Shown here: piece by piece, positions 3,633 through 33,897 of the stretch | How the letters are laid out: each line of letters starts with the position of its first letter | How positions within the stretch are numbered: position 1 is the stretch's first letter | Origin: an uncultured Oscillospiraceae bacterium | Lineage (GTDB): Bacteria > Bacillota > Clostridia > Oscillospirales > Oscillospiraceae | Direction: 5' to 3' | DNA length: 34,135 nt | Assembly: GCA_944386885.1 (NCBI GenBank) | Contig: CALXCU010000086.1 | Span: 1-34,135 of the forward strand | Position numbers and translations under genes: made by a program | The notes under the pieces: model-generated | Told to the model about the DNA's origin: nothing | The model's database searches: none | What the model saw: the letters and a program-made list of their open reading frames with translations, nothing else

Positions 3633-6600
3633 TCACGCCTCCTCTCCGCCAAAGCTGTCCAGCTCATTGAGCACGGTATCCAAATCCCCCATCATATGGC
3701 GGAAATTAGCTCCGTTGAAGGTATAGCGCCCGTTGAGGCACATGAGCACGTTGAGTTCCTCCATCTCCGTGAGGAGCGTCTCCACGCTCTCCGGCGGCAG
3801 CTCCGTAATGGCGGTAATCTGCCAGTCCCGGCACACGTTGTAGATCTCCTGGGCCGTGTAGCCCTCCACTGCCCCCTCGGGCTGGTCGTAGTAACAGTAG
3901 GCCAGGGCGTAGGCCAGGATGCGGTAGTAGAGCTTATCCTCCTCCACATCCAGTGTGATGAAGAACTTCTCCCGAATTTGGCTGATAAAATCGGATTTCT
4001 GGAGCAGGAGCTGGATCTGCTCCTCCCCCATCTGGTAGGGCGGGCGGAGCTCGCCGCTGGCGCCGCTCCCCAGGGACTCAATCAGCTGGGTGCAGTAGAA
4101 GTGGATGAGGCCGGGGTAGTAGTTGGTGGTCAGGAGGATCTGGGAGATCAGCTCGCTGCCCTGGTCCGCCCCCAGGCGGAAGCCCAGGTAGTACAGCGGC
4201 TCCTCCAGCAGCTCCCGCGCCTCCTGATAGGTCAGAGGTTTAATGGTCAGGGTGCCCAGCTTGGCCAGGACGCTGTTGTTCCGGGTGGCCGAGCGGGCAA
4301 AGCGCATGACATTGTGCAGGCCAGCCAGTACATACTTGAACCGCCCCCCGGTGGCAGTCTGGAGCTGGTGGAGGCACTCCACCGGCCGGTAGCTACACGT
4401 CCCGGAGGTCTCCAGGAAGCGGTCTGCCTCGTCCATCAGAAGGAGGAAGCGCTCCACCCGCTGGCCCGGGCGGTCCATCCGCGCCCGGATGAGCTCGCAC
4501 AGCTCCTCCCAGCTCTCGGGCCCCTCCGCCTCCGGCTTGAGGAAATTCTCGGCGGTCAGGTGGGCATAGAGCTTTTTCAGGGACTCCTGATAGTCGCAGC
4601 GGCAGAGTACGTCGGTATACACCGCCCAGCGGCCGTTGGCCCGGTCATCCGCCAGGCCGGCCGCCCGGCGCAGCAGGGCGGTCTTGCCCAGCTGCCGCCC
4701 GCCATAGATAATATTGGCTCCTCCGTTGTTCAGAATATCGGTGAGTTGGCTGCGCCGGCCCATGAACATCTCCGGCGGCATGGGGGTGTCGCCCTTCACA
4801 TAGGGGTTGTAGAAGTGGAAGGGCAGGGTGCACTGGAGCAGCACCTTACCCCGCTCGGCGTCGGAGCACCCGGTCAGGAAGAGCATGAGCACCCGGTCCA
4901 ACACAATGCAGGTGGACAGGTGGGCGCTCTCCCGCTTGAGCTTGGCGGCCAGGGCGTTGCGCTCTGAGAGGGGCAGGGCGTAGTCCAGCAGGAAGAGAGT
5001 GGGCGTATCCGTGTGGCCCAGGCCGTTGATCAGGTCCACCAGCTCTCCGGCCGTCTTGCGCCCCGAGAGCACCCGCACGTTCAGCCCTGTCTGGGCCAGG
5101 CGGGTGCCAAAGGCGGCGATCGGGTGGGGATAGGTATATACGTTGGTGGCCGGCGGGTCAAACTCAGCCCGGAAGCCGGCGCTCCCCTCATAGCGGACCT
5201 GCCGGGCGGGCAGGGAGAGGCAGTGGAGCAGGTCCCGAATGGACTCGGGGCTGGGGTTGTTGTTCCGGGGCCAGGAACGGATCATCTGCCGGGCGCTGCG
5301 CTTGGTGCGGTTCTTATCCTGATTGGCGTCCCCGGCAAAGGTGTTGTAGATGTGCTCCAGGGTGCGGCTCTGGCCCCGCTCGTCGGTGCACAGACGGCTG
5401 AGCGGGCCGTACTCCCGCAGGAAGCGGCGCAGGGCGTCCCGTTCCTCGCTCATCTGGAGCGTACCGCCCTCCGGGCTCTCCCAGGCGTCCTCCCGCAGCA
5501 CCCGCTGCATGTAGTCATGGGCTACGCTGAACATCTTCTTCTGGAGCAGCACCTCAATGTCGGCAAAAATGGGGCGGTCGGGTACGCTCTGTTTGAGCTG
5601 GTCAAACTCATACCGGTAACGGGGCTCCAGGCGCTCGGCATCCCGCTGCACCGCCTCCAGGCAGGCCTCCATGGCGCGCACATAGAAGCCCCAGTTCATG
5701 GTCTCCTCGTAATGCAGGCGCTCCACCTGGGTGATGGCGTTGGCCAGGCGCTCCTTCTGGGCGTTGTCCTCGATCTGGCCATAGGTGGCGGCCAGCTCCA
5801 GCCGGGCCCGGAAACGGCTCTCCTGCTCGGCTACCCAGCCCTGTTTTTTGGCGTTGTCGCCCAGGATATCGGCCCGCTCCAGCTGCTCCAACTTCTGGCC
5901 GCGGCGGTGGGCGCAGTCCTCAATGAGCTGGGCGGTGCCGAAGTTATAGCTGTCCGGGGCACCTTTCTCGCCGCCCCAGATCCGGTCCACCACCTGCTCC
6001 CAGGCGGTGCCCTCCCCAGCGCGCAGACGGCGCACATGCTCCTCCAGCCGCGTCCAGGGTTCGCAGCCGGGGATCATATATTCCGCCGGCTCAAAGATGG
6101 GGAGCAGCTCCTCGCTGAGTTCCACCTGGCCGGTGCGCAGGAAGTCCACATAGAATTCTCTCCGGTCCACCGGCCGTCCCTCCAGGCAGTCCGAAAGCTC
6201 CCGCAGGGTGAAGTCCAGCACCATCACAGCGCCGGAATGCGCGGTGTCCTCCCGGCCGCCCAGGGCCGAGGTCTCCTCCCGGCTGGAGGCAAAGAGCTCC
6301 AGCAGGCGGCTGCGCTCCTGGAGGATCTGCCCGGCCTCCTCCTCGCCGATGGCCGCCGCGTCGGAGGACTCCAGCCACTGGGCGCACACCTCCAGGCAGG
6401 TGCGGAAGCGGCTGATGGCCGGATTGCGCACCTTGCCTTTCAGGGAGTCCTTCTGCTTATACTTGGTCGGCTGTTCCTCCCAGACCTGGTCGATGCGCTT
6501 GATGATGGCCCGCTGGTCCGGGCTGCCCAGCTCGTCCAGCAGAGGCTGACACAGCTCCCGTACCCGGTCCCGTCGGCCGGTGTCGTTCTGCTCCACGATG

Positions 6601-15230: not shown

Positions 15231-16445
15231 TTAGCCTTGCAGCACGGTAATCCCCTCTATTATGTGATCAAAGGTGGGGGCACAGCCCTCCGCGCACTCG
15301 TCGTACCAAGCCCCTTCGCCGATCTCAAAGGCTTCTCCCTGGGCATCAGTCCACTGAATTGGCCCGGAAAAGACATGGAGCGTTCCCGCTTTCAGGGCGG
15401 CCTGCGCCTCATCCAGCGCCTCCTGGGTGCCTGGAGCGGCCAGGGCGTCATTCAGCGTGGTCAGATAGAGGGCCCCCTCTGCCCAGCCCAGGTTCCACTC
15501 CTCCGGTACGCCGGAGCCGTCCAGCAGGCCCTGAGCCGCCTGCGTAAAGTAGAGGCCCCAGTTGACCCCCGCCGAGAGCAGGGCCGCGCCGGGAGCGTGG
15601 CCGCTCTGATCGCTGCCGAAGCCCACATAAAAAGCCCCCAGCTGCTCCGCCATGGTGGCCGCGCCGGTGGAGTCGGTGTGCTGGCCCAGCACGCCGCAGC
15701 CCCGGTTGACCAGTGTCTTGGCCGCTTGGCTGTCTTGGGCGGCGTCCTCCCAAGCGCCGGTGTAGACCACATCCATTACCACCTCGGGATAGACGCTTTT
15801 TGCCCCCAAATAAAAGGCAGTAAAGCCGGAGATGACCTCGGCGCACGCCTCGGGGGCCACATAGCCCAAGCGGGGATTGCCCAGCTCTTTGGCCTTCTCT
15901 CCGGCGGCAATGCCCGCCAGATAGCGCCCCTCGTGGACAGCCGGGTAGTAGCGGTGGAAGTTCTCCGGCGTACTCCCGGTCTCTTCCCAGATCCCGCCGG
16001 CAAGCTGGCAGAACTGGACCTCCGGGTTGTCCTGAGCAGCCTGGATCACCTCTTCCCCAAAGAAAGGACTGGTCGAAAAGACAATCCGGCAACCCGCGTC
16101 GGCCAACGCCTGGGCCGCCTGGGCGGCATCCTCTTCTGTGCCCACATTGTACCGCTCCCGTATTTGTCCCTCTTCCAGACCCAGCGCCTGGGCCATTTCA
16201 TCGGCCCCGGCCGAGAGGCTGCGGGTATAGCCTTGGTCGCTCACATCCCCGGGATAGAGGAGGCCCACCAGCAGCTCCGCCTTCTCCAACCCCTCTGGGG
16301 CCGAGGTCGGGGTAGGAGTTGGGGCGGCGCTGGCCTCCGGGGCCGGGGAGGCGGCGGGAGTGGGGCGGGTCTGGGCCGGGCCGCAGGCCGACGTGCCCAA
16401 GGCCAGTGCGCCCGCCAGGAACAGAGGGATCAGACGATGTTTCAT
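15231..16445 (-). CDS. BMP-family substrate-binding lipoprotein
   Basis: A 404-aa extracellular lipoprotein of the Bmp/PnrA family, which bind purine nucleosides for ABC importers. The signal peptide ends in a lipobox-like GTSAC with C21 as the lipidation site. A Pro/Ala/Thr-rich linker (about 22-45) follows, then the binding domain with VGLLYPGDVSDQGYTRSLSAG, IVFSTSPFFGE, HEGRYLAGIAAG, GCGVLGQHTDSTG and NWGLYFTQA. Signal-like and BMP features are seen directly. The purine ligand is inferred from family and from xpt 36 nt upstream. No permease or ATPase gene is nearby, so the transporter must be encoded elsewhere or this is an orphan sensor. ATG 16445 has AAGGAGG upstream. Confidence 0.88.
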   Translation of the reverse strand: MKHRLIPLFLAGALALGTSACGPAQTRPTPAASPAPEASAAPTPTPTSAPEGLEKAELLVGLLYPGDVSDQGYTRSLSAGADEMAQALGLEEGQIRERYNVGTEEDAAQAAQALADAGCRIVFSTSPFFGEEVIQAAQDNPEVQFCQLAGGIWEETGSTPENFHRYYPAVHEGRYLAGIAAGEKAKELGNPRLGYVAPEACAEVISGFTAFYLGAKSVYPEVVMDVVYTGAWEDAAQDSQAAKTLVNRGCGVLGQHTDSTGAATMAEQLGAFYVGFGSDQSGHAPGAALLSAGVNWGLYFTQAAQGLLDGSGVPEEWNLGWAEGALYLTTLNDALAAPGTQEALDEAQAALKAGTLHVFSGPIQWTDAQGEAFEIGEGAWYDECAEGCAPTFDHIIEGITVLQG

Positions 16446-16481
16446 GGGGTCCTCCTTGTGGTCATGCCAGGGTATCAATGC

Positions 16482-17078
16482 TCAGTCCGCGCAGAATTCG
16501 ATGGAGTGGGTGGCCTCGTCCATGGACTTCACCCGGGCCAGGGACTCCACCCGCACGCCCATGGAGCGGATCAGGTCCCCGCCGGGCTGAAAGGCCTTCT
16601 CCACGCAGATGCCCGCGCCAATGAGGGTGGCTCCGGAGTCCCGGACCAGGTTGATCAGCCCCTGCAGCGCGCTGCCGTTTGCCAGGAAATCATCGATCAG
16701 CAGCACCCGGTCCTCCGGACCCAGGAACTCCTTGGAGACGATAATGTCATAGACCCGTCCATGGGTGAAAGAGGCCACTTTGGACGTATACACGTCCCCG
16801 GCGATGTTTTTGGTCTTGTTCTTTTTGGCAAAGATCACCGGTACATGGAAGAACTGGGCGGTCAGGCAGGCAATGCCGATGCCCGAGGCCTCAATGGTCA
16901 GGATCTTTGTCACATTCTCATTTTGGAAAATGCGGTAAAATTCCCGGCCAATATCATTAATGAGGTCAATATCCATCTGGTGATTGAGGAACCGGTCCAC
17001 CTTCAGTACCTCAGTCCCTCGAATGGTGCCGTCCTGGCGGATCCGCTCTTCCAGCTTTTTCATGCCCATATGTCTCAT
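16482..17078 (-). CDS. xpt: Xanthine phosphoribosyltransferase
   Basis: Xpt converts xanthine and PRPP to XMP in purine salvage. The 198-aa product has LKVDRFLNHQMD, the EASGIGIA segment, FAKKNKTKNI and the PRPP-binding VLLIDDFLANGSAL. The likely start is uncertain among ATG 17078 (AGGGA seven bases upstream), ATG 17069 (GAGG nine bases upstream) and ATG 17063, which matches the usual MKKLEERI beginning. The BMP lipoprotein follows in the same operon, joining purine uptake and salvage. No purine riboswitch fold is visible upstream although xpt often has one in Bacillus. Promoter at 17129-17157. Confidence 0.95.
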   Translation of the reverse strand: MRHMGMKKLEERIRQDGTIRGTEVLKVDRFLNHQMDIDLINDIGREFYRIFQNENVTKILTIEASGIGIACLTAQFFHVPVIFAKKNKTKNIAGDVYTSKVASFTHGRVYDIIVSKEFLGPEDRVLLIDDFLANGSALQGLINLVRDSGATLIGAGICVEKAFQPGGDLIRSMGVRVESLARVKSMDEATHSIEFCAD

Positions 17079-22991: not shown

Positions 22992-25529
22992 TCAGTCCGT
23001 GAGGGTCAGCCTCTGGATTGTGCTGGCAATCGAAGCGCCCGTATAGTACTTGTCTGCATAGAAGAGGCTGAAATTGAGGATATACTCTCCAGAGGCTACA
23101 GAGGCATACTGGTCCTCATCCAGGGAGCAGACCACCTCCTGGCTCTCCGGCGTCAGAGGGAGGGAGAGACATTCGATCCACTCGCCCCCTACATAGAGTC
23201 CGGCCCACAGAACCAGCTCCTCCTCCACTCCGGCGGGCACCTTCACATCCAGAGTGAAGAAGGCCTTCTCCGTCCGGGATACCCGGCTGGGGCCGGAGAA
23301 AATAGCTACCTGGAAGTCCCGGCTATCATACCCGGCCACCCGCACCGCGCAGGAGGCGGATACCCCGTTGGATGCCCGTGCAGTCACGGTGCAGTCCCCC
23401 GTTCCCTCCGCCGTGATCGTGCCGTTTTTTACACTGGCCACCGCCGGATTGCTGGTGCTCCAGGTAATGCGGGTGTCGGCGGCCTCATAGGGCAGGGCCA
23501 CGGCGGTAATGGTGGTGGACTCCCCCGGCTCCATCAGGAGGGAAGTGGAGGTGAGGGCCACCCGCTCCACTTCCACCTCTTCCGCCGGAGCGGCGGTGAC
23601 TGTGACCTCCAGGGGCTCCGGCAAGGTCACCCCGCTGGCGGAGGCCATGTGGAAATTCAGGTAGGCGGTGCCCGGCGCCTTAGCCAGGAGGGCCCCGCCA
23701 GGGGCTACCTCTACCACGCTGGAATCGGAGGAATAGAGCTGCGCTTCGGCGGTGACGTCCACGTCATAGGACCCGCCCTCCTGCACATAGTGAGCCCGCA
23801 GGTAGACGGAAGTCTCCTCCCCAACGGCCAGCTCCACAAAGGAATGGGACCAGCGGAAGCCGGTCAGCTCGGCCGCCTCCGGTTCTGCGGGCGGCTCCTG
23901 GCCGGGGGACGGTGTGGGCATGGGAGTGGGCGTCACCGTAGGAGCCGGAGAGCATGTGGGGGTGGGCTCAGGCACTTCTGCCGCGCTGCGCAGGTCTAAA
24001 ATCCCCGCGCCGCCGCCGCTCTGGGCCATGGGAGACGTGCAGGCGCACAGTGCTTCCTCCAGGCGTGCGGGGGAGAGGGCCTCCCGGCTCAGGAGCACGG
24101 CGGCGGCGGCGCTGACCAGGGGGGCGGCAAAGCTGGTGCCCGAATCGGTGCGCAGCCCACCGTCCGCCCTCAGCCCGGTTACGTCTACACCCGGGGCGGA
24201 CAGGTCCACACGGTCTCCGGTGTTGGAAAAGTCCGCCAGCCGTCCGTCCGGACCGGTGGCAGCCACCACAATGGCCGCTTCACACCGGGCGGGGGAAAAG
24301 AGGGCCGTATCCGCCCCGCTGTTTCCGGCGGCCGCCACCACTGCCATGCCCCCTTCCACCGCGCTGGCCACCACTTGGTCAAAAAAGGGGCTGGCCCCCA
24401 TGGTGAAGCTCAGGTTGGCCACATCCGCCCCCGCCTCCTGGGCAAAGGTGACTGCGGCGCAGAGAATGGACAAAGGCGCCTGGCCCAAGGTGCCGCTCTG
24501 GGCAAAAGCCCGGATGGGCAGGAGGGAGACGTTCTCCGGCGTATAGGCGGCCACCAGGGAGGAGACAAAGGTGCCGTGGCCGTTGGGGTCGCCCTCCACT
24601 CCGGCGTGGCCCTCCTGAAAGTCGAAGCCCTCCTCCAACCGGCCCGCGAAGAGCCCCAGGGCCGGGGAGATGCCGGTATCGATAACCGCCACCGTGACGG
24701 CCCGGTCTCCCGCCGCAGTCTGGGCAAAGGCCTCCAGGCCGGTGGCCTCATTTTCCCAGCCGCCGGTCACCCCGCCGGAGAGAGCGGCCTGGACGGCCGA
24801 ATCGGCCGTCACGGAAAAGCCCGCCTGCTCCAGTGTCTCCTGGGCCCCAGCGGCGGCGCTGGTGGTGGAAAAGGACAGGGCAAAGAGCCCGCCCCCCAGG
24901 TCCAGCACCTCCGCCCCGGTCTCTTCTAAGGCAGGGCGGTCCCCCGCCCGGGCCAGGACCAGCAGGCGGCGGGCCGCATAGGTGTTCTCCACCGTGACGG
25001 TCTCTGTCTCTTGATCCCATGCCACGGCGCAGTCCAGGGCCTCCGTGACGCCCCGGACGGGGAGATAGGTCCGCTCTTCATAGAAGCAGGGGGCCACATC
25101 CAGCTCCACCGGCGCTCCATCCACATAGATGGTGGTATCCCCTGCCTCCAGCTGGATGGACCGGCCGCCGGCCTGAATGGCGACGCGGTTGCCCCCCTGG
25201 TACGCGATCTCGCCCCCCAGGGTCTCCACAATGGCCCGGGCGGGCAGGAGCGTGCGCTCATTCACCGCCATGGGGGCGGTGGCCCGGCCCGGATCAATGG
25301 CCACCGTCCCGGTCTCCCCCAGGGTGGTGGTGACCGCCATTTCCGTCTCTCCCAGCGTGAACGAGAGGGCGGCCGTCTCGTCCCCGGTGTCCTGGATCCA
25401 GGCGCTCAAAGTCTCATAGGCCCGGACGTCTGCCCCGACATTCTGGGCCCCGGCGGCAGGGGCGGGGAACAGGCCCGCCAGCAGGGCCAGGCTCAGCGGC
25501 AGGGCGGGAAACAGGCGGTTGAATTTCAT
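22992..25529 (-). CDS. Secreted subtilisin-family protease with accessory domains
   Basis: An 845-aa exported S8 serine protease. Order: signal peptide 1-28, a copper amine oxidase N-terminal-like domain (about 60-185, NERTLLPARAIVETLGG and RTYLPVRGVTEAL), an S8 catalytic domain (about 260-510), a Pro/Thr linker (about 525-560), and Ig-like repeats including a Big_2 domain (ITWSTSNPAVASVKNGTI). The full triad is present: D284 (AVIDTGI), H318 (NGHGTF), S466 (GTSFAAP), with oxyanion N403 (AAGNSG). A region between the two N-terminal domains may act as a propeptide. ATG 25529 follows AAAGGAGG. Probably a cell-envelope or extracellular protein-degrading enzyme. No wall anchor is visible. Confidence 0.92.
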   Translation of the reverse strand: MKFNRLFPALPLSLALLAGLFPAPAAGAQNVGADVRAYETLSAWIQDTGDETAALSFTLGETEMAVTTTLGETGTVAIDPGRATAPMAVNERTLLPARAIVETLGGEIAYQGGNRVAIQAGGRSIQLEAGDTTIYVDGAPVELDVAPCFYEERTYLPVRGVTEALDCAVAWDQETETVTVENTYAARRLLVLARAGDRPALEETGAEVLDLGGGLFALSFSTTSAAAGAQETLEQAGFSVTADSAVQAALSGGVTGGWENEATGLEAFAQTAAGDRAVTVAVIDTGISPALGLFAGRLEEGFDFQEGHAGVEGDPNGHGTFVSSLVAAYTPENVSLLPIRAFAQSGTLGQAPLSILCAAVTFAQEAGADVANLSFTMGASPFFDQVVASAVEGGMAVVAAAGNSGADTALFSPARCEAAIVVAATGPDGRLADFSNTGDRVDLSAPGVDVTGLRADGGLRTDSGTSFAAPLVSAAAAVLLSREALSPARLEEALCACTSPMAQSGGGAGILDLRSAAEVPEPTPTCSPAPTVTPTPMPTPSPGQEPPAEPEAAELTGFRWSHSFVELAVGEETSVYLRAHYVQEGGSYDVDVTAEAQLYSSDSSVVEVAPGGALLAKAPGTAYLNFHMASASGVTLPEPLEVTVTAAPAEEVEVERVALTSTSLLMEPGESTTITAVALPYEAADTRITWSTSNPAVASVKNGTITAEGTGDCTVTARASNGVSASCAVRVAGYDSRDFQVAIFSGPSRVSRTEKAFFTLDVKVPAGVEEELVLWAGLYVGGEWIECLSLPLTPESQEVVCSLDEDQYASVASGEYILNFSLFYADKYYTGASIASTIQRLTLTD

Positions 25530-25545
25530 GCTAAGACCTCCTTTT

Positions 25546-25620
25546 TCACTCAGACGATTTCCCGCGCATTGAAACCCGGTACGCGGACCGGCCCGTTGGT
25601 GGTTCCCAGCTCCAGTCCAT
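25546..25620 (-). CDS. Possible 24-aa leader ORF before the subtilase
   Basis: An ATG at 25620 lies ten bases after a strong AAGGAGG (25637-25631) and opens 24 codons (MDWSWEPPTGRSA...) that stop just before the subtilase ribosome binding site. A good ribosome binding site with no other gene to serve is unusual. It may be a regulatory leader peptide, a small product, or the remnant of a degraded gene. An alternative ATG at 25627 opens a 25-codon frame but with only 3 nt of spacing. Confidence 0.3.
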   Translation of the reverse strand: MDWSWEPPTGRSAYRVSMRGKSSE

Positions 25621-25716
25621 GGCCCATTCACCTCCTTAAGATGATTTTATTTTATCGTAAATCTACCCTTATAGGAGTCAGCAAGATTTCTGATTTTAAA
25701 AAGCTCAGAACAGAAG

Positions 25717-25736
25717 TTATCTTATATATAAGATAA
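25717..25736. repeat. Perfect 20-bp AT-rich palindrome
   Basis: TTATCTTATA followed directly by its reverse complement. It abuts the terminator of the TIR operon and precedes the subtilase promoter region. It may be an operator or part of the terminator tail. The rest of the gap (25637-25716) is AT-rich and probably holds the subtilase promoter, which I could not place with confidence. Confidence 0.6.
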
Positions 25737-25761
25737 GCGCCCTGGCAGAAGCCAGAGCGCT
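25736..25761 (-). terminator. Terminator of the TIR operon
   Basis: AGCGCTCTGGC pairs with GCCAGGGCGCT (11 bp with one G-U) around a TTCT loop, 25 nt past the last gene of the operon. The minus-strand tail is TATCTTATATA rather than a pure T run. The plus-strand side has TTTTC. Confidence 0.7.
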
Positions 25762-25786
25762 TTTCAGCGGTCTCCATGCAAACCCC

Positions 25787-28675
25787 TCACTCCGCCGGGC
25801 CGGGCGCCAGAAAATCCGGTGTGCTGCGGACGCTCTCCCGGTCATAGTCCCGGGGATCGGGGAGGTTCTTTTGGGGGTTGTGGTCGTGGACCATCCGGCT
25901 CACCCGCTCCCAGTTCTCGCTCAGCATTTCCCAGGAGCACAAGTAGGGGTGGAGCCGGGCCAGTTCCAGTTGCTGCCGGGGGTTGCCCAGGTCCAGGTAG
26001 GCCGCGAGCTGGGCCAGGCCGGCCTGCCGCCAGCCCCGGGTGTACATAAAGTAATTCCAGCGCATATGCTCGGCCTGGGCCGCCCGCTCCAATCGCTCCT
26101 TCCCCAGCGCCGGGTCCTCCAGCCAGGCCCGGTAGCGCCGGCCCAGCTCTTCCTCCGCCTGAGCGCTACCGTAGAAATGCCAGTCGGTCAAATAGACCCC
26201 CGCGGCAAAGGCCCGGTAGATGAGGTGCAGGGCAGCCAGGCGGGAGCTATCCCGGTTGTACTGGCTGCCATAGTAGTCATGGAGCGCGGCCTGGGTGGGG
26301 GCCTCCCCGGCACTGACGCCGTAGTAGGAGGCGTGGATGGCAATGGCCCGCTTTTCCAGCAGGTCCCCCTCCAGGGCGGCATAGGAATACAGCCGCCGCT
26401 CCGCGCCGAAGAACGAAAGGGCGTAATTGGCATACCACTGGTATCCAAAGGGCTGGGAGGCTCCCACCGAGAGGGTGCGGGCAATGCGGGCCGTCCGCCC
26501 CTCCCGGCAGCGCACCGCAATGACGGGCAGCCGCCGGAAAGCCGGGTCTCGGGCAAGCAACCCCCGGCGCAGCGCCATTCCCAGCTCCAGGTTCTTCCGG
26601 TCGTCCTCCTGGGCCGCCACGAAGTAATTTCCTCGGGCCAGGGCGGCCTCCACGGCTTCTTCTGTCTCTCCGGCGGCCTCCGGGCACAGAGGCAGCGCCT
26701 CCAGATCCGCCTCCAAGAATTGGGGTTGGATCTGCGACGTTCCGGAGCGGTCATAGAGGCCGGGACAGAGCTGGCGGAACCGCTTTTCCAGCCCGGCGGC
26801 GTCCGGCGCCAGAACGGCGATGTGCAGCGGATACTCCTCCAGATAGGCGGCGGCAATGGCCTCCCGGACCACCCAGAGGGCGCAGGGCGAGCCGCCCAAA
26901 AGGACCAGCTGCAGGTGCTTCTCCTCCGGGTTCTGAAGGCTGGGGACAAAGAGGGGCGTGGTGGAGAGCAGCTCCTGGGCCGCGGCCTGATCGGGGTCCA
27001 CAAGGCGCACCGGGACGTCATAGCCCTCCGTGCCGCTCAGGCAGGCATCCAGCAATGCGGCGGCCGGGTCCTGCCGGGCGCGCACATACAGGCGCAGCCG
27101 CCCGGCCAGGGTCCGCCGGTCCTCCGTTCGGTCCAGCAGGGGCAGGAGCCGCTCCAGGAGGGAGAGGGTCCCCTCCAGGTTGTCCTCCTCCCGCTCCCCT
27201 AGGAAAGCCAGCAGAAGGGGGGCGCCGTCCGAACGGGAGGACCACTCTGGCCAGACCTCCTCCAGCGCATCCGCCGCCGGCGCGCTGGAACAGACTAGGG
27301 CCGTCCCCTTTTGGGCCAGCTCCCGCTCCAGGCCGTCAAAGGTCCCCTCCCCCTGGCAGAGGACGACCCGCCAGCCCCCGCCCGGGAGGGACCGGGCTAA
27401 CATTTGGTTCCGGGGGGCGTCTCCGTCCAGCAGGCACAGGCCGGGCGCCCCGGCGGGCTCCCCCCGCCCCTCTTCCCCGGTATCCAAGGGCCGCTTCAGC
27501 TTGCGCAGGGCCTGGGCATGACCGCTCTTGGCAGCCCGCTCCAGCCACTTCTCCGCATCTTCCGGCTGTTCCTGTCCCAGGATGAGACTAAGTTGGTACT
27601 GGCACTCCGGGTCCCCGCTCTGGGGCTCCTCCGGGCGGGCCCCTTTGCGGAAATAAGCGTCCGCCTTTGAAAGATCGCCCGCCTCCTTGGCTCTCTGTCC
27701 CAGCAGGCGGCAGGCGGCAGGATGGCCCGCCTGGGCGGCAGCCTCATACTGCCCCTGCGCCTCTTCCGGGTCAGAGGCACATCCCACGCCATACTGAAGG
27801 CATTGGGCCAGTTCATAGCAGGCGGGGCCAAACCCCGCTCCGGCGGCCCGCTGGAAGCAGGCAAAGGCCTCCTCCGGCTGGCAGAGGCAGCCGTCTCCCT
27901 GCTTCAAAACGCTCCCCCGCTCATAGAGCAGCCGGGCCTGGTCCTCGCTGAGGCTCTTTTTGACTGGCAGTCCCTCCACCGCCCTGCGCAGATACTCTGC
28001 CGCCTCCTCCCGGCGGCCCTCTCGGCGCAGCAGGCCGATATACCGCAGTTGGTCCGGCGGCGTCCGCTTCTGGAACGCTTTTTCCTCCATGGGCGCAGGT
28101 TCATCCTCGTTCCACAGGCTGCGCAGCAGGTCCAGCGTCATCAGGCTGCCCACCCCCGCCGTCAGCACACATTTCGCGAGCGCTTTTGCCGGGTCTTCCT
28201 CCGCGCAGCGCGCAAGGCGGCTTTGCAGCTCTTGCTTCTCCTTCACAGACGGCCCGTCGCTCTCTTTGTAGAATTGAATCTTGTAGAAGAGCCCCTGCAA
28301 AAAACGGCCCAGAATCTGGGCGGTCTCCGCCGCAGGGAGCGCGGGCCGCCCGTCCCGGTAGAGGACGTCCCGACAGCGGGCCTGCGTCTGGCTGAAAAAA
28401 GAGTCTCCCTCTTTTTTCAGTTCCTGGACAAGCTGCCTCCCCACCGCCTTGTTTCGCTCATCCCCGTTGAGGAACCAGGAGAGCTGGGCCGAGTAGCTGC
28501 CCTTCAACTGTTCCTGAAGGGATTTCGCCCACACCTGCGGAAAAAAGAGGGCCATATAGTCCTCGTTGGTATATCTCCGCCCATCCGCCCGCCGCGTGCC
28601 GGCGAGCTGCTCAAACAGGCCGCGCAGGGTCCCCTCTTTCTTTGTCCTCTTGGGCTCAGTCTCGCGTGCCGCCAT
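25787..28675 (-). CDS. Sel1-repeat / Rossmann-like / RyR-like protein of the TIR operon
   Basis: A 962-aa protein, last gene of the TIR operon. Order: a helical N-terminal domain (1-200), Sel1-like TPR repeats (about 205-395, for example EEAFACFQRAAGAGFGPACYELAQ), an alpha/beta segment (about 410-560), a Rossmann-like domain (about 585-765) with HLQLVLLGGSPCALWVVREAI resembling a dinucleotide-binding loop, and a C-terminal helical region (about 770-960). The last part has E-H-M-R-W-N-Y-F and LHPYLCSWEMLSENWE spacing like bacterial RyR domains, thought to bind nucleotide-type ligands. The architecture suggests a sensor or scaffold for a nucleotide signal. This is inferred. ATG 28675 has GGAGGAG upstream, 40 nt after the previous stop. 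Confidence 0.65.
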   Translation of the reverse strand: MAARETEPKRTKKEGTLRGLFEQLAGTRRADGRRYTNEDYMALFFPQVWAKSLQEQLKGSYSAQLSWFLNGDERNKAVGRQLVQELKKEGDSFFSQTQARCRDVLYRDGRPALPAAETAQILGRFLQGLFYKIQFYKESDGPSVKEKQELQSRLARCAEEDPAKALAKCVLTAGVGSLMTLDLLRSLWNEDEPAPMEEKAFQKRTPPDQLRYIGLLRREGRREEAAEYLRRAVEGLPVKKSLSEDQARLLYERGSVLKQGDGCLCQPEEAFACFQRAAGAGFGPACYELAQCLQYGVGCASDPEEAQGQYEAAAQAGHPAACRLLGQRAKEAGDLSKADAYFRKGARPEEPQSGDPECQYQLSLILGQEQPEDAEKWLERAAKSGHAQALRKLKRPLDTGEEGRGEPAGAPGLCLLDGDAPRNQMLARSLPGGGWRVVLCQGEGTFDGLERELAQKGTALVCSSAPAADALEEVWPEWSSRSDGAPLLLAFLGEREEDNLEGTLSLLERLLPLLDRTEDRRTLAGRLRLYVRARQDPAAALLDACLSGTEGYDVPVRLVDPDQAAAQELLSTTPLFVPSLQNPEEKHLQLVLLGGSPCALWVVREAIAAAYLEEYPLHIAVLAPDAAGLEKRFRQLCPGLYDRSGTSQIQPQFLEADLEALPLCPEAAGETEEAVEAALARGNYFVAAQEDDRKNLELGMALRRGLLARDPAFRRLPVIAVRCREGRTARIARTLSVGASQPFGYQWYANYALSFFGAERRLYSYAALEGDLLEKRAIAIHASYYGVSAGEAPTQAALHDYYGSQYNRDSSRLAALHLIYRAFAAGVYLTDWHFYGSAQAEEELGRRYRAWLEDPALGKERLERAAQAEHMRWNYFMYTRGWRQAGLAQLAAYLDLGNPRQQLELARLHPYLCSWEMLSENWERVSRMVHDHNPQKNLPDPRDYDRESVRSTPDFLAPGPAE

Positions 28676-28715
28676 GGCCTCTCCTCCTTCTTTTCATTGC
28701 CTTTCCGGCGAATGC

Positions 28716-31073
28716 TCACTTGACCAAAAAACTCAGGAACGCCCGGTCATCAAAGGACACACACCCCGGATTGAGGCGCTTGGTCCCGATGAGCAGGCCG
28801 GTACACTCCGGGTCGATGCGCAGAGCCCGAGCCAAGTAGTCCTCACACTCCTGGAGGGAATCAAAGAGCTCCGGATACCCGTCGCTGGCCAGGATCACAT
28901 GGTCCCCCGGCGAGAGGGTATAGAGCACGACATGGCTGGGGTCGATGGCTCCGCCGTCCAGCACGTCGTAGCCAAAGGGGCCGCTGTAGTTGGCAAAGAG
29001 GGCCTGATCCTTCAGATAGGGCAGAATCTGCATGCGCCCCACATCCTCCGGCCCGGTGGGGAGCCCCTTCAGCCGGCACAGCTCGATATAAAAAGCCCGC
29101 AGGCTGCTCAAGAGCCAGTCCACCCGCTTGGAGTGGTCGTAATTGGTCCCATTGATGCGCAGCTTGCAGTCTCCAAAAGACCACACCTCACGCCGGGCGG
29201 ACGAGGCCACCAGGATGCTGGCCTGGAGGCGCTCCTCCGGGGGCAGCTCTTCCAGGGAAGTCCCCGCCTGGGCGTAGGCGTCTGCAATCTGCTTGTTAAA
29301 GAAGGTGACAGCCTCTTCGGCGGTGCTCTCCAGGGGGAGCTGCTCCAGGGCCCGGCACAGGAGCCGGGCCACAAACACGTCCCCCGGCAGGCCGTCCCAC
29401 AGCCGCGTCCCCTTAGGGGTGGCCCCGTCAATGACGGCCATAAAATGCTTGCCCTGAAACACAGCGTCACCACAGGGGCTGTCCCCGCCCGCCTTGCCCT
29501 GGACAAACGCCTCTTCCAGACGCGCCTCCATGCTCTGCCGGTCAAAGACCGTCTGCCCCACGGCCTCCAGATAGGCGCCGATGGCAAAGGCCGCCTGGGA
29601 GAGATACCGGGGATAGGAGCTGAGCAGCTCGTCCCGGAGCCTCCGCACCGGCAGGACCCGCTTTCCGGCCACTTCGAGGATGCTGTCCTTGCCCTGGAGC
29701 GGGAGGATCGCCTCCATCCGCGCCTTCTCTTCCCCCTTCAGCTCCACCGAGCAGGCCAGTCCGACCTCCAGATTGGCTTCGTTGACGAAAAGCTGGTAAA
29801 AGCGCAGGGTGTCCATGGCCACCAGCGCTTCCTCTCGCTCGATGCCCAGCTCCTCCTCCAGGCCCCGGGCTACCGCCTCGGTGAGAAGCACCGTGTTGGA
29901 GAATGCCTCATAGTCGGTGGCGGACACCCCCTCGATGACCGATACCGAGTGGAGCACCTGGCCGTAGGTCTCAGAGGCGTTGACCGAGCGGTCACACAAG
30001 AGGACGCTCCGCTCCCGCTCCTTGGCGTTGGAGAGAAGCAGCAGATTGATGCCCAGCGAGGTAAAGAAGATGCGGTCGGCGCCCAGATGGGCATAGGAAA
30101 GATTCCTGAAATGGGGATGCCCCTCCCGGTAGAGCTCCTTACACACCTCTTTCATCACCCGGTGGGTGAAGTAGTCGGTGGTAAAGAGCTCCAGCTCCAG
30201 GCAGGCCCGCTCCCCCTGGTCCTCGGTCCGGACAAAGGGCGCGATGCTGTAGATTCCAAATTTTTTGTTGTTGTAATAGGTGCCGTTCTCCTGGCTCAAA
30301 AACTGCCGGAAGACTTTGCGGCGGCTCTCCTCGATGCGCTGGACCAGGTCGGGGACGCCGGGAATCTGGGCGCAGTACGGCTCCAGCGCCGCGCCGAACA
30401 CCGTATTCTCCTCCTGGAAATGCTCGGCGGCCCACTCCCTCCGGTCCTCGGGCACCTCTTCCGCGGGGGGCGCAAGGAAGAAGTACGCCCCCTTCCGGAG
30501 GGAGACCCGCATGGTCTGGCCATAGAGAAAGTAGGGGTCCCCAGCGGCAATGGGGGTGATGGCCAGCTCGCGCAGGGGAATGCGCCTGTGCTGGGGGATG
30601 CCGGGTCCGGGCCCGGCCGTGGGGAGGATATTCCGGGCGCACAGCTCCTGCCGCATGACCTCCAGCGCCTCGGGCGGCAGGTGGTAGGCAGGGATGATCT
30701 GCGTGTTTTGCAGGACAAACTCAAATCCGTTCCTCAGGGGAGCATGGTCGATTTGCAGCGGCAGGAGCGCCTTTTGCCGGGACACAGAGAAATTGACCTC
30801 CAGAGAGACCCAGGGAGACTCCATAGCGGCTTTGGAAAGCAGGAACACCACCGCCTGGGCCGGCTCCAGATAGCCCTGGCGGACGCGGGCCTCATCCTGC
30901 TGCGGGATCTGATCCCAATTCAGCTCTCGGGCGATTTCCCGGGAAAAATCCCGGCCGCCCCGGATCTCAAAGGGCGCCAGCCAGACACCGTAGCCCTGAT
31001 CCTTGAGGTAATGGTAGGTCTGAAGGGCGTATTCCTCATCCGGGGATGCATAACTAATGAAAATCTGTGCCAT
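28716..31073 (-). CDS. TIR / Nudix-like / PP2C-like fusion protein
   Basis: A 785-aa three-part protein. Residues 1-145 form a TIR domain (IFISYAS at the start, E92 in PWVSLEV at the place of the NADase glutamate). Residues about 160-450 include R403-G-L-E-E-E-L-G-I, which matches the REUxEExGU core of the Nudix box except Gly for the first Glu, and without the upstream Gly and Glu, so this domain may bind rather than hydrolyse. Residues about 525-785 look like a PP2C phosphatase (FMAVIDGAT, VILASDGYPEL, FDDRAFLSF) with its Asp residues in place. TIR enzymes use NAD, Nudix proteins handle ADP-ribose-type compounds, and PP2C removes phosphates from Ser/Thr. ATG 31073 is set by AAGGAG about eight bases upstream. 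Upstream GTG/ATG options add 2-3 residues. Confidence 0.72.
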   Translation of the reverse strand: MAQIFISYASPDEEYALQTYHYLKDQGYGVWLAPFEIRGGRDFSREIARELNWDQIPQQDEARVRQGYLEPAQAVVFLLSKAAMESPWVSLEVNFSVSRQKALLPLQIDHAPLRNGFEFVLQNTQIIPAYHLPPEALEVMRQELCARNILPTAGPGPGIPQHRRIPLRELAITPIAAGDPYFLYGQTMRVSLRKGAYFFLAPPAEEVPEDRREWAAEHFQEENTVFGAALEPYCAQIPGVPDLVQRIEESRRKVFRQFLSQENGTYYNNKKFGIYSIAPFVRTEDQGERACLELELFTTDYFTHRVMKEVCKELYREGHPHFRNLSYAHLGADRIFFTSLGINLLLLSNAKERERSVLLCDRSVNASETYGQVLHSVSVIEGVSATDYEAFSNTVLLTEAVARGLEEELGIEREEALVAMDTLRFYQLFVNEANLEVGLACSVELKGEEKARMEAILPLQGKDSILEVAGKRVLPVRRLRDELLSSYPRYLSQAAFAIGAYLEAVGQTVFDRQSMEARLEEAFVQGKAGGDSPCGDAVFQGKHFMAVIDGATPKGTRLWDGLPGDVFVARLLCRALEQLPLESTAEEAVTFFNKQIADAYAQAGTSLEELPPEERLQASILVASSARREVWSFGDCKLRINGTNYDHSKRVDWLLSSLRAFYIELCRLKGLPTGPEDVGRMQILPYLKDQALFANYSGPFGYDVLDGGAIDPSHVVLYTLSPGDHVILASDGYPELFDSLQECEDYLARALRIDPECTGLLIGTKRLNPGCVSFDDRAFLSFLVK

Positions 31074-31078
31074 GCCCA

Positions 31079-31537
31079 TCACTCCTTTCCGTGTCTATTG
31101 GGTTCTCTCTCCCCGTCCCAGCGCCGCTCCCAGGCCTCCGCCCACCCCTTCATTTCCGCCGTCAGCGGCAGGAGCACCTTGTCGTTTCCGCCGGGGTATT
31201 TGAAGAACAGGATTTCGGTCCCCTGGGGCGATTTCTGAATATAGGGCGTTTGGGGGCGGATGACGAACACATCTCCCGCCTCCACTTGGTACTCCCGCCC
31301 AAGGGAGAGGTCTACATATTTGGCCGCCCCCTTGAGGAGCATCTGATACTCGGTGGCCTTGGTGTGATAGTGGGGCTTTTCACACTGGTAGGCGGCAAAG
31401 CGGGTGATGCCCAGCTCCACATGCCGGTCCAGGAGGTGCTCCAGCTCCTGGGGAAGCTGGAGATCGCCCACCAGGTACTGGCGGTGGCTGCGCTCCAGGG
31501 CGCCGTCAATGGCCGAGGCCCGGATGATCTCAATCAC
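31079..31537 (-). CDS. Cupin-domain protein within the TIR operon
   Basis: A 152-aa single-domain cupin. H56-x-H58-x4-E63 (K-P-H-Y-H-T-K-A-T-E) is the classic first metal-binding motif, and the second half (YQVEAGDVFVIRPQTPYI) fits the cupin barrel. It could be a small metalloenzyme or a ligand-binding protein. The substrate is unknown. The GTG start at 31537 overlaps the TIR gene's stop by four bases (GTGA) with GAGGGGG seven bases upstream. The stop falls next to the start of the fusion gene, so the three genes are translationally coupled. Confidence 0.8.
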   Translation of the reverse strand: MIEIIRASAIDGALERSHRQYLVGDLQLPQELEHLLDRHVELGITRFAAYQCEKPHYHTKATEYQMLLKGAAKYVDLSLGREYQVEAGDVFVIRPQTPYIQKSPQGTEILFFKYPGGNDKVLLPLTAEMKGWAEAWERRWDGEREPNRHGKE

Positions 31538-32547
31538 AGTGAATCCCCCTCTTCTCCGGCTATGGGCCGGGCGTGCTCCCAAATCCACTCGAACTGCCGC
31601 TGATAAAAGCAGAAGTTCTCCTCATCGTCGGCGTGGATGTACACGCACCGCCGGGCCTTGTCCTGGCAATGGAAGGAGTAGTAGTCCACCTTGACGGTGC
31701 TCTCCCTGGGGTCCTTCGCCCGGATCAGGAAAATGGCGCAGGGCAGGTAGAGGTCGGTCAGGCGCCCCTCGATCTGGGCGGGATAGCGCTCCATCCAGTC
31801 CAGCAGGTCGTCGTAAGTATTTGGAATGATCCGGCCCCGGTGGCGCAGGGAACCCCCGGCGATTTTGTACTGATAGGCCTCCTGCGCCGCCGGGGAGGCC
31901 GGGTCGTTCATGACCACCCGGATGCGGCACCCGTTCTCAGCCAACCTGTCGATATGCTCCCGGGCGTGGCTGAGCAGCGCCTGGCAGGCCATGGCGCATA
32001 CGGCCACCTCCTCCACCGCTCCGCCTAACCGCTCTGAGAGGGAATACCGGTCCTCCACGCTCTCCCGGGATTCCAGCTTGGTGCAGGCGGTGAGTCTGCG
32101 GTAAGCCCTTTCTGTCTCGTCCGTAGGGGTCATCTTGACCAGCAGATCGGCAAAAAAGGAGGAACTGAGGTAGCGGGTATCGGTGATCTCAATGGCCTCA
32201 TAGGCCTGGATCGGCCCGACCCCCTCGTACAGCTGCCCCGGAAAACGGAAACCGCCGCACAGGATGGGAATGATATTTTTCTGGAGGGCGAGCGCCCGCT
32301 CGATCTCCTGGCGGAACACGGTGTGCTCCGGCCCTTCGATCCGCTCCAGGCAATTGCCCGAGAGCACCAAAATAAAGTCCTCCGCCTCCTCGATCCCCCG
32401 CTGAAGCGCCTCAGAGAAGACGCCGCTGTAGTGATACAGGTTATTTTTGTCCCAAAAGCATGGAATCCCGTTTTCTGCAAAGAACCGGTAGATCCGCTCG
32501 GCGTAGATTTCGCCGGTTTTTTGCTGGTAGCTGATAAATGCGCCCAT
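31534..32547 (-). CDS. TIR-domain protein with PLD-like C-terminal region
   Basis: A 337-aa protein, first gene of the operon. Residues 1-125 form a TIR domain: GAFISYQQK at the start, E81 in FRQEIERALA at the usual catalytic glutamate position, and NIIPILCGGF as the following strand. Residues about 160-337 contain AVCAMACQALLSHAREHIDRLAENG and RIRVVMNDPASPAAQEAY, resembling PLD-like regions that accompany TIR or helix-turn-helix domains as sensors. The HKD catalytic motif is not seen. Bacterial TIR domains often cleave NAD or make cyclic ADP-ribose-type signals. Activity here is inferred. ATG 32547 is chosen with AGGGGGG upstream. The longer frame has no ribosome binding site. Confidence 0.78.
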   Translation of the reverse strand: MGAFISYQQKTGEIYAERIYRFFAENGIPCFWDKNNLYHYSGVFSEALQRGIEEAEDFILVLSGNCLERIEGPEHTVFRQEIERALALQKNIIPILCGGFRFPGQLYEGVGPIQAYEAIEITDTRYLSSSFFADLLVKMTPTDETERAYRRLTACTKLESRESVEDRYSLSERLGGAVEEVAVCAMACQALLSHAREHIDRLAENGCRIRVVMNDPASPAAQEAYQYKIAGGSLRHRGRIIPNTYDDLLDWMERYPAQIEGRLTDLYLPCAIFLIRAKDPRESTVKVDYYSFHCQDKARRCVYIHADDEENFCFYQRQFEWIWEHARPIAGEEGDSL

Positions 32548-32623
32548 CTGATTCCCCCCTATTTCCGGCAGGTCCTCTTTCCCCGCTTCTTCTTGCCGCC
32601 GTGCGGCCGGCGGTTGTATCAGT

Positions 32624-32635
32624 CTTATTTTACCA
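32624..32635 (-). promoter_or_regulatory. Extended -10 promoter of the TIR operon
   Basis: The minus strand reads TGGTAAAAT, with the -10 TAAAAT at 32632-32627 preceded by a TG extension. The -35 is weak (TTTCCT at 17-nt spacing). The leader is about 73 nt and has a CCGCCG/CGGCGG hairpin. Confidence 0.5.
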
Positions 32636-32690
32636 GAGTTTATACAGGAAGGAAAGAGCAAACCCTGGGCGCCCAAGCGCTTCCAATGCT

Positions 32691-32727
32691 CAAAAAGGGC
32701 CCCAAGGGACAAACGCTCCCCGGGGCC
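32691..32727 (-). terminator. Terminator after the aldo/keto reductase gene
   Basis: GGCCCC pairs with GGGGCC, with an inner GGGA/TCCC stem, followed on the minus strand by CTTTTTG. It separates the reductase from the TIR operon promoter. Confidence 0.75.
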
Positions 32728-32736
32728 TTGGTCCTA

Positions 32737-33897
32737 TCACGCTTTTCTTTTGGGGAATGCGTCCGCAGCCTCAAATGTTCCAGCCACATCTTTTAAGAAA
32801 TCCCGGATGTTCAGATGCTGGGGACAAGCCCGCTCGCATTGGCCGCAGCCGATGCAGGCGCTGGCCATGCCATGCCGGAGCGAAATATTGTTGTAGTACG
32901 CCGCATGGCTGGAAAAGCTCCCTGTGGTGCGGGAGAAGTTGTTGAACAGCGCAAAGTACTGGGGAATGGCAATGTCCATCGGACAGCCGTGGGTGCAATA
33001 GGCGCAACCGGTGCAGGGGATGGGCGTATTTTCTTCAATGATGGCAGTCGCCTGGCCGATTACCGCCCGCTCTCCCTCTGTAATGTGCCGGAAATCCCGG
33101 AAGGTTGCAGCGTTATCCAGCACCTGCTCCAAGGTGTTCATCCCGGAGAGCACCCTGACCACCCCCTCTTGGCTGGCGGCGAAGCGCATCGCCCAGGAGG
33201 CCATAGAGGCCGCCGGGTCCGCGGCTCTCAGCAGGGCCGCCGCCTTGTCCGGTAAATTCACCAGCGTGCCGCCCTTGCAGGGCTCCATGACGGCCACGTC
33301 TTTTCCATATTTGCGGGCAACCTCCAGGCATTGGCGGGACTGTACATTGGGCTGCTCCCAGTCCACATAGTTGATCTGGAGCTGAATAAAGTCCAGTCCC
33401 TCCCCGTACTGGGCGAGGATCTCATCCAAAAGCTCGGGCGTATCGTGGAAGGACATGCCTACCTGGCCGACGGCCCCCTCCGCCTTCTTTCGGGTCACAA
33501 AGTCAAAGGCGCCGTACTTTTTGCACTTTTCATAGACGTTAGTGCCCATGTTGTGGAGAAGATAGCTGTCAAAATAGCTCACCCCGCAGTGTTCCAGCTG
33601 TTCGGCGAACTTGCGCTCCAAATCGGCCTCATCCCGGAAGTCCCGCAGGGGCAGCTTGGTAGCCAGCTGAAAACGGTCCCGGGGGTGGCGTTCCACCAGG
33701 GCTTTGCGCACCGCCTCTTCGCCGTGATAGCCGTGATACGTATAGGCAGTGTCAAAGTATGTAAATCCCTGGTTCAAAAAGGCGTCAAACAATACCTCAA
33801 TCTTTTCATAGTCAAAGGAATCTGGTTCGCTGGTGCGCAACAGTGGCAGACGCATACATCCAAATCCAAGGTCCGGCTTTCCTTTCCTCTGCGCCAT
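32737..33897 (-). CDS. Aldo/keto reductase with ferredoxin-type 4Fe-4S motifs
   Basis: A 386-aa fusion common in anaerobes. Residues about 8-280 form the aldo/keto reductase barrel (GFGCMRLPLL, YFDTAYTYHGYHGEEAV with the catalytic D and Y, QLATKL, LLHNMG, GVVRVLSGM). Residues about 290-365 have two clusters, C-T-G-C-A-Y-C-T-H-G-C-P and C-I-G-C-G-Q-C-E-R-A-C-P, each fitting CxxCxxCxxxCP. It likely reduces a carbonyl substrate with electrons from NAD(P)H and/or ferredoxin. The substrate is unknown. ATG 33897 has GGAGG eight bases upstream. The frame stays open for 32 codons beyond it, without a better start. It is transcribed alone and is not evidently part of the TIR operon. Confidence 0.9.
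   Translation of the reverse strand: MAQRKGKPDLGFGCMRLPLLRTSEPDSFDYEKIEVLFDAFLNQGFTYFDTAYTYHGYHGEEAVRKALVERHPRDRFQLATKLPLRDFRDEADLERKFAEQLEHCGVSYFDSYLLHNMGTNVYEKCKKYGAFDFVTRKKAEGAVGQVGMSFHDTPELLDEILAQYGEGLDFIQLQINYVDWEQPNVQSRQCLEVARKYGKDVAVMEPCKGGTLVNLPDKAAALLRAADPAASMASWAMRFAASQEGVVRVLSGMNTLEQVLDNAATFRDFRHITEGERAVIGQATAIIEENTPIPCTGCAYCTHGCPMDIAIPQYFALFNNFSRTTGSFSSHAAYYNNISLRHGMASACIGCGQCERACPQHLNIRDFLKDVAGTFEAADAFPKRKA

Follow-up and report, generated by a model that had tools for sequence, protein, structure and literature searches.

A four-gene operon with an unusual TIR-PP2C fusion is part of a wider TIR-RyR neighbourhood

Do four adjoining bacterial genes, two of which encode TIR proteins, make up a complete nucleotide-signalling or immune system, as a sequence-only reading of the locus had proposed? 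TIR domains are a kind of alarm enzyme able to cut NAD; RyR denotes the ryanodine receptors of animals, whose nucleotide-binding part g4 resembles. The genes, g1 to g4 in this order, are four linked ORFs on the minus strand spanning positions 32547-25787 of the window, i.e. of the whole stretch of 34,135 nucleotides that was analysed (contig C86 of an assembly of 2.4 Mb in 181 contigs). Their features are as follows.

31534-32547, minus strand: g1, a TIR protein with a DUF5919-like C-terminal domain (337 aa; TIR_2, DUF5919 and phmmer matches)
32233-32538, minus strand: TIR domain of g1 (residues 4-105), with Glu81 aligned with the Glu of WVHKEL in C. elegans tir-1
31079-31537, minus strand: g2, a small cupin protein, with a GTG start over the g1 stop (GTGA) and a Cupin_2 match
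28716-31082, minus strand: g3, a TIR/middle/PP2C fusion (788 aa)
30708-31064, minus strand: TIR domain of g3, with Glu95 in SPWVSLE, invariant in 3 of 3 proteins
29538-30605, minus strand: middle region of g3 (residues 160-515, 356 residues), present in three proteins
29844-29867, minus strand: Nudix-box-like motif of g3, R406-G-L-E-E-E-L-G413, with RE changed to RG
28719-29531, minus strand: PP2C-type phosphatase domain of g3 (residues 518-788)
25787-28675, minus strand: g4 (962 aa), in which Sel1-type repeats precede a Rossmann-like region and the C-terminus is RyR-like
27722-27826, minus strand: Sel1 repeat of g4 (residues 284-318; Sel1 8.9e-6, under the cut-off)
26306-26914, minus strand: Rossmann-like (TrkA_N-like) region of g4 (about residues 588-790), from alignment with membrane Rossmann-RyR proteins
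25826-26098, minus strand: RyR-like region of g4 (about residues 860-950), with H870, W873, H909 and perhaps D945
25735-25762, minus strand: terminator-like hairpin of 12 pairs, 3' of g4

This co-linear four-gene arrangement is a genuine operon. The proposed gene order and junctions (a 4-nt overlap, a near-contact and a 40-nt gap) were confirmed from the ORFs and their start and stop codons. The first two genes share a 4-nt GTGA overlap if g2 starts at GTG 31537 (the ORF list gives g2 169 aa, counted from 31588); g2 and g3 overlap through another GTGA, unless the start of g3 is an ATG 3 nt downstream; and g4, 40 nt beyond g3, is preceded by a good AAGGAGGAG-type ribosome site. A single terminator had also been predicted, and the 12-bp terminator-like hairpin after the last gene (25762-25735) agrees with it; its stem is the longest of 12 such sites found in 25500-33000, where shuffles give 6.5 (sd 2.3). 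The single promoter fared less well, as none was found upstream of the operon and the sole promoter-like match (shuffles 1.2) lay inside it, at 31266.

The composition of the four genes (third-position GC 0.80-0.82) is comparable to that of LepA (0.84) and a subtilase (0.80) in the same window, the value for the aldo/keto reductase gene upstream of the operon being 0.68. The scanned window genes to which Pfam gave a name mostly have housekeeping roles or encode secreted proteins (PNPase, LepA, an HTH protein, Bmp, a phosphoribosyltransferase, a GH18 protein, YitT, SufBD, an ABC ATPase, the subtilase and the aldo/keto reductase), and Pfam recognised no defence gene among those scanned. PADLOC gave weak matches to the operon, chiefly to its TIR parts. 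An empty-site comparison with five genomes of the same genus yielded just one 37% match to the aldo/keto reductase. Elsewhere in the window, an open frame of 1841 aa (3633-9158, minus strand) has no Pfam match at E 0.001. The same genome also encodes a canonical RyR-domain protein on another contig (C121:1734-2003; L158, L183), with no TIR gene across 12 kb.

The TIR domains assigned to g1 and g3 both scored above the TIR_2 cut-off (7e-10 and 1.2e-14, respectively). When g1 was compared with solved structures by phmmer, its TIR domain matched C. elegans tir-1 (7e-9) and SARM1 (1.8e-5); the tir-1 alignment covers residues 3-105 and places Glu81 in register with the Glu of WVHKEL, which we take to be the catalytic Glu of a TIR NADase. 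Glu95 of g3 was matched to SARM1 by motif only and is invariant in the alignment of the three family members, and a Foldseek search with the predicted model of g3 retrieved SPARTA TIR-APAZ (1.3e-5). The tail of g1 fell just under the cut-off of DUF5919 (1.3e-4; 22.3 vs 23.5 bits). It had been labelled PLD by eye; since no HKD motif is visible by eye in g1, this label remains a fold guess. A homologue search in 345 genomes gave eight matches to g1, its own included, and one other protein, L146, carries both halves. The cupin assignment of g2 comes from a Cupin_2 match that is narrowly under its cut-off (7.6e-6; 26.0 vs 27.2 bits). Relatives of g2 with 39-45% identity occur in four further genomes among 245 of the order (five matches with its own).

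The phosphatase end of g3 gave no match with the Pfam PP2C models. The PP2C fold that had been proposed for it was borne out by structure prediction: this part of the model was predicted with a block pLDDT of 82-98 and Foldseek aligned it with PstP of M. tuberculosis (1txo, 2.1e-9), PstP, RsbX and others being retrieved at probability 1.00. Six Asp residues (539, 552, 638, 734, 778 and 779) are invariant across an alignment of 25 sequences; from the PP2C motifs, we presume that the metal ligands are among them. Relatives of g3 were sought by one scan of an 84,980-species genome collection with one peptide pattern of the PP2C end, which misses relatives lacking the pattern; it returned 88 relatives and 80 kept loci, of which two, L042 and L043 (43 and 45% identical to g3), are full-length TIR-middle-PP2C proteins. 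In the other 78, the match is confined to the PP2C end (residue 464 or later) and the genes mostly stand alone. Within the family, g3 found itself only (1 match in 300 genomes). Some PP2C relatives have other architectures. One, in a Bacteroides assembly (L049:7026-8825), lies behind a part that by eye resembles a glycerophosphodiester phosphodiesterase, and the proteins of L057, L065 and L069 are similar to it in length; another, on a Streptomyces plasmid (L004:5974-6801), is annotated as two adjoining hypothetical genes although it forms one frame.

We considered whether the middle region of g3 is a Nudix domain, as had been read from its motif. The Nudix box has the consensus GX5EX7REUXEEXGU. 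In R406GLEEELG413, the R, the EE and the G of this box are kept, the Glu after the R is replaced by Gly and the earlier Glu is missing; R, G, L, E410, E411, L and G are invariant in g3, L042 and L043 (R-G-L-x-E-E-L-G). A relaxed box pattern, which was written after the sequence had been seen, had no match in 5 shuffles of 3505 ORFs; in the ORFs themselves it matched four copies of g3 itself, L042, L043 and three others, of which two conform to the strict box as well. Comparison of the middle region with Nudix by hhalign gave a probability of 15%, as against 97% for a Nudix-Nudix control. Pfam gave no match below E 0.1, no Nudix protein was present among PDB matches up to E 10, and the AlphaFold (AF2) model of the middle region alone was too poor for a structure search (pLDDT 37.9). 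Among 157 genomes of the class there was, besides g3 itself, one weak match running through stops (E 0.008). The motif thus stands, conserved in all three proteins, whereas neither profiles, PDB searches nor AlphaFold confirmed the fold, and we call the region Nudix-like, a designation that is unproved. The further proposal that it removes the signal is weakened by the loss from the motif of the Glu for the catalytic base, in a fold that was not confirmed.

A membrane protein in Acetoanaerobium, encoded in L003:4725-6804 by a gene that overlaps a PP2C gene by 14 nt, resembled the g3 middle region by eye. Two-way profile searches scored below shuffled controls and hhalign gave 0.5%; we therefore do not claim homology. 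A relative of this membrane protein is similarly placed, overlapping a PP2C gene, in Halolactibacillus (L064:4572-6648), the lengths in the two being 431/432 aa, and a 46% relative of the membrane protein occurs on an Arthrobacter plasmid (L173).

The three assignments made for g4 held in part. Its Sel1 match is below the cut-off (26.5 vs 30.7 bits), and the repeat region has a similarity to ExoR (6.8e-7) that is far under the cut-off of that model. The Rossmann-like region aligns with relatives (best single match L157, iE 0.0033), but g4 itself has no library match there. Similarly, g4 had no gathering-score match with the RyR family PF02026, and its link with RyR runs through a chain of relatives. 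From residue 487 onwards, g4 matches L037, a protein of 1039 aa (5e-58); from residue 681, it matches the membrane protein L038 (3e-19) and others more weakly; and across the order there is a gradation from Rossmann-like membrane proteins that end in a RyR domain to canonical RyR proteins, one protein in the L184 run passing TrkA_N. In hhalign comparisons with canonical RyR, g4 alone or with two relatives reached 0.2-0.7%, and a profile of g4 with 11 relatives reached a probability of 93.7 (E 2e-7); against the PDB, a profile of g4 with eight relatives retrieved a RyR1 chimera (1.8e-8) and a bacterial RyR structure (8.6e-4), both of these stronger profiles including relatives that match RyR on their own. 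These comparisons show that the C-terminus of g4 is a diverged homologue of RyR, connected through intermediates.

By motif and order, His870, Trp873 and His909 of g4 correspond to H75, W78 and H100 of the phage protein RyDEP, and Asp945 may correspond to its catalytic Asp, D117, provided that two insertions are allowed for. In L037, a close relative, Gln takes the place of the first His; a conjugation gene and the R subunit of a type I restriction system are encoded no more than 5 kb away from it. In 394 genomes of the order, g4 had 33 matches, most of them to the Sel1 part only; the C-terminal part was present in five other genomes. In 398 genomes of the phylum, this part matched itself only.

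If the four genes formed a complete system, the set might be expected to recur. Yet the exact set was not found again among 168 loci other than its own and was seen in one genome. In three of these 168, two genes of the set found a match: a PP2C and a Sel1 match in one, and in the other two a single TIR gene picked up by both TIR queries. The full-length g3 relatives L042 and L043 do not adjoin relatives of g1, g2 or g4, and a search of their genomes for g1 and g4 yielded one TIR-only match and Sel1-only matches. Plasmids were searched with all four genes and phages with g3, giving only matches to the PP2C part in three plasmids and one phage record; viral contigs contained no relative. The claim of a complete, conserved system was therefore not upheld. 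The operon belongs to a wider neighbourhood of TIR and RyR genes and is unusual in its fusion of TIR with PP2C.

This neighbourhood became apparent in the scan of the 168 loci, where a TIR gene lies 19 nt from a RyR gene in L152. A survey of RyR proteins located 20 RyR places in 15 of 147 genomes of the same order. We compared 15 RyR regions (12 read anew and L183, L041 and L039; two come from one genome) with 20 control stretches of the same genomes. TIR genes were present in 6 of the 15 regions, tight or fused in five of them, and in none of the controls (p 0.003), which were taken by arbitrary contig numbers, are shorter and total 223.5 kb; moreover, the genomes are related and not independent. 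Counting all five loci of the relatives of g4 gave 6 of 18 regions (p 0.007) and the tight cases alone 5 of 15 (p 0.009); with the controls limited to the 13 that span 10 kb or more, p was 0.013 for 6 of 15 and 0.031 for 5 of 15. The arrangements were as follows.

L184: TIR following RyR; Rossmann proteins and an FtsH-like AAA-M41 protease belong to the same run
L188: TIR, Rossmann-RyR-like protein, RyR
L190: TIR, TIR, AAA-RyR-RyR, with gaps of 45 and 23 nt
L191: TIR and RyR in one protein, both above the cut-off
L193: TIR-Sel1-TPR, then Rossmann-RyR
L194: TIR 2.4 kb from RyR, with another gene between

Gaps in the tight runs are 12-45 nt. The middle protein of L188 has no Pfam match, and its RyR end is weak (E 0.02). 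TIR genes were absent from L185-L187, L189, L192 and L195, from the 3-kb RyR loci L165, L166 and L170, from the five loci of the direct relatives of g4 and from the 78 PP2C loci (1.1 Mb); the Sel1 part of g4 had no match in the RyR regions. The adjacency of TIR and RyR genes in several related bacteria hints at a little-explored signalling or defence system. As a separate observation, RyR-domain genes in L184:6567-14431 and L041:8982-15745 have as neighbours membrane proteins of Rossmann-RyR-like type and an FtsH-like AAA-M41 protease, L184 alone adding a TIR gene, with a second TIR match at 15819-17000.

How might the products of the operon work together? Since TIR enzymes produce 2'/3'cADPR and phage RyR domains cleave or sequester this compound, g4 is best read as a putative receptor or eraser of such a signal. 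The phage precedent is given in the available passages of a 2026 preprint, according to which one phage RyR-domain protein cleaves 2'/3'cADPR and other RyR (PF02026) proteins sequester it (PMC13232231). We hypothesize, giving it about an even chance of being right, that the operon is a co-transcribed TIR nucleotide-signalling module in which the RyR-like protein receives or removes the signal and the TIR-(Nudix-like)-PP2C protein couples it to dephosphorylation. Once triggered, g1, with its DUF5919-like presumed sensor, and the TIR domain of g3 would cleave NAD+ to an ADP-ribose-type signal. The RyR-like end of g4 would bind this signal and perhaps cleave it, and the Sel1 and Rossmann-like parts may pass the bound state to a partner. 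The middle region of g3 would act between TIR and PP2C as a presumed nucleotide sensor of Nudix-like type with its base lost, comparable to NUDT9-H of human TRPM2, so that signal making, sensing and dephosphorylation would be joined in one chain. With a presumed nucleotide-sensing region in this position, the nucleotide state would control the dephosphorylation of a target. The cupin g2 may be an accessory small-molecule or metal protein, and the module would probably serve in a stress or anti-phage response. The enzyme activities, the ligand, the direction of signalling, the target and the defence role are what we infer from these comparisons. The earlier idea of an ADP-ribose-type TIR system with a RyR-like receptor gains support from the Glu in both TIR domains, the putative ligand residues of g4, the phage proteins (PMC13232231) and the RyR genes beside TIR genes in related genomes. 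The proposal that PP2C resets a phosphorylated state is plausible, though none of the four operon genes has a kinase match.

We considered the possibility that the four genes are an assortment, namely a SARM1-like TIR protein, a cupin, a TIR-PP2C regulator and a Sel1-Rossmann-RyR protein, which belong to separate pathways and have only the transcript in common. The relatives of each gene do stand apart elsewhere (L042 and L043 for g3, L146 for g1, L142-L145 for g2, L037-L041 for the C-terminus of g4). Yet, the overlapping start and stop codons, the presence of a hairpin only past the last gene and the occurrence of two TIR genes and a RyR gene in one run in L190 (TIR-TIR-RyR) make this explanation unlikely. 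The patchy spread of g3, which in the family was found in its own genome only (1 of 300), and the restriction and conjugation genes within 5 kb of L037, the closest relative of g4, speak against a stress or metabolic regulator of NAD+/ADP-ribose or of the phosphorylation state with no part in phage defence, which we regard as quite improbable, even though it would fit the mostly housekeeping or secreted neighbours (PNPase, LepA, SufBD, subtilase, aldo/keto reductase) and the 78 of 80 g3-scan loci that match the PP2C end only and mostly stand alone.

A further question is whether g4 acts as an effector or, with its RyR-like part erasing the signal like phage RyDEP, as an off-switch of the TIR proteins (an immunity protein). 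The correspondence of His870, Trp873 and His909, and possibly of Asp945, with the RyDEP residues is what one would expect of an eraser. However, the assignment of Asp945 rests on an alignment with insertions and L037 lacks the first His; in addition, according to the passages available, six of eight phage homologues bound the signals and, of those tested, only RyDEP of DyoEdafos cleaved (PMC13232231). The eraser role is therefore doubtful, and we retain the broader module, in which the RyR-like protein would either receive or remove the signal.

Extending this module to the related loci, we tentatively propose that the TIR-RyR operons of this order may form one class of TIR systems, for immunity or signalling, whose built-in receptor or eraser of the TIR product would be the cell's own RyR-type domain and whose further modules vary (TIR-Nudix-like-PP2C here, an FtsH-like AAA protease in L184, AAA in L190). 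If this is correct, the making of cADPR-type signals by TIR enzymes and their binding or cutting by RyR domains, hitherto known apart, would be joined within NAD-derived signalling, and operons with both would allow a direct test of whether RyR domains evolved as receptors of what TIR enzymes produce, which has been asked of animal ryanodine receptors too. The R12 domain of these receptors would gain a bacterial counterpart working with its own TIR enzyme, and phage RyDEP would be a captured host part. With the TIR-PP2C fusion, the potential outputs of TIR signalling would come to include the dephosphorylation of proteins. Among titles and the starts of abstracts, a coverage that did not extend to a likely source, the 2015 survey of nucleotide-centric conflict systems, no paper dealt with TIR together with RyR in operons of bacteria or with a fusion of TIR and PP2C. 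In the available passages of PMC7159879, Nudix is one of the domains associated with NAD-linked conflict systems, and a different system has a PP2C gene next to one for a kinase; RyR is not mentioned in these passages.

Compared with known systems, what is unusual here is a TIR-RyR neighbourhood with a TIR-PP2C fusion, in an exact gene set that our searches found nowhere else. Bacterial PP2C phosphatases (PstP, RsbX, SpoIIE) share the fold and the conserved Asp of g3, which differs in being fused behind a TIR domain and a familyless middle region and in escaping the Pfam PP2C models. For that middle region, NUDT9-H of human TRPM2, described in the accessible parts of two papers as a Nudix domain that has lost catalysis and senses ADPR (PMC6461439, PMC5671594), is an analogy only, as its Nudix identity and homology to NUDT9-H are unproved. 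SARM1 and C. elegans TIR-1 resemble g1 in the TIR domain, whereas g1 has a DUF5919-like C-terminal domain and no ARM or SAM match. In Thoeris (ThsB TIR with a ThsA-type effector), as in the operon, a TIR protein stands beside a presumed nucleotide-binding partner and an ADPR-type signal is expected. The operon differs by its Rossmann-RyR-like partner and by the second TIR fused to PP2C; g3 scored under the cut-off of ThsB_TIR (0.016), and Pfam, PADLOC and NCBIfam found no ThsA, SIR2, SLOG, Macro or other known Thoeris effector in the four proteins. Finally, g4 shares with phage RyDEP and the RyR (R12, PF02026) proteins, as far as the preprint passages describe them (PMC13232231), a RyR-type domain, in which His/Trp/His of g4 fit the ligand residues by motif and order. 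RyDEP, however, is a phage counter-defence protein, while g4 is encoded by the cell, has diverged with insertions and is fused to Sel1 and Rossmann-like parts in an operon with TIR.
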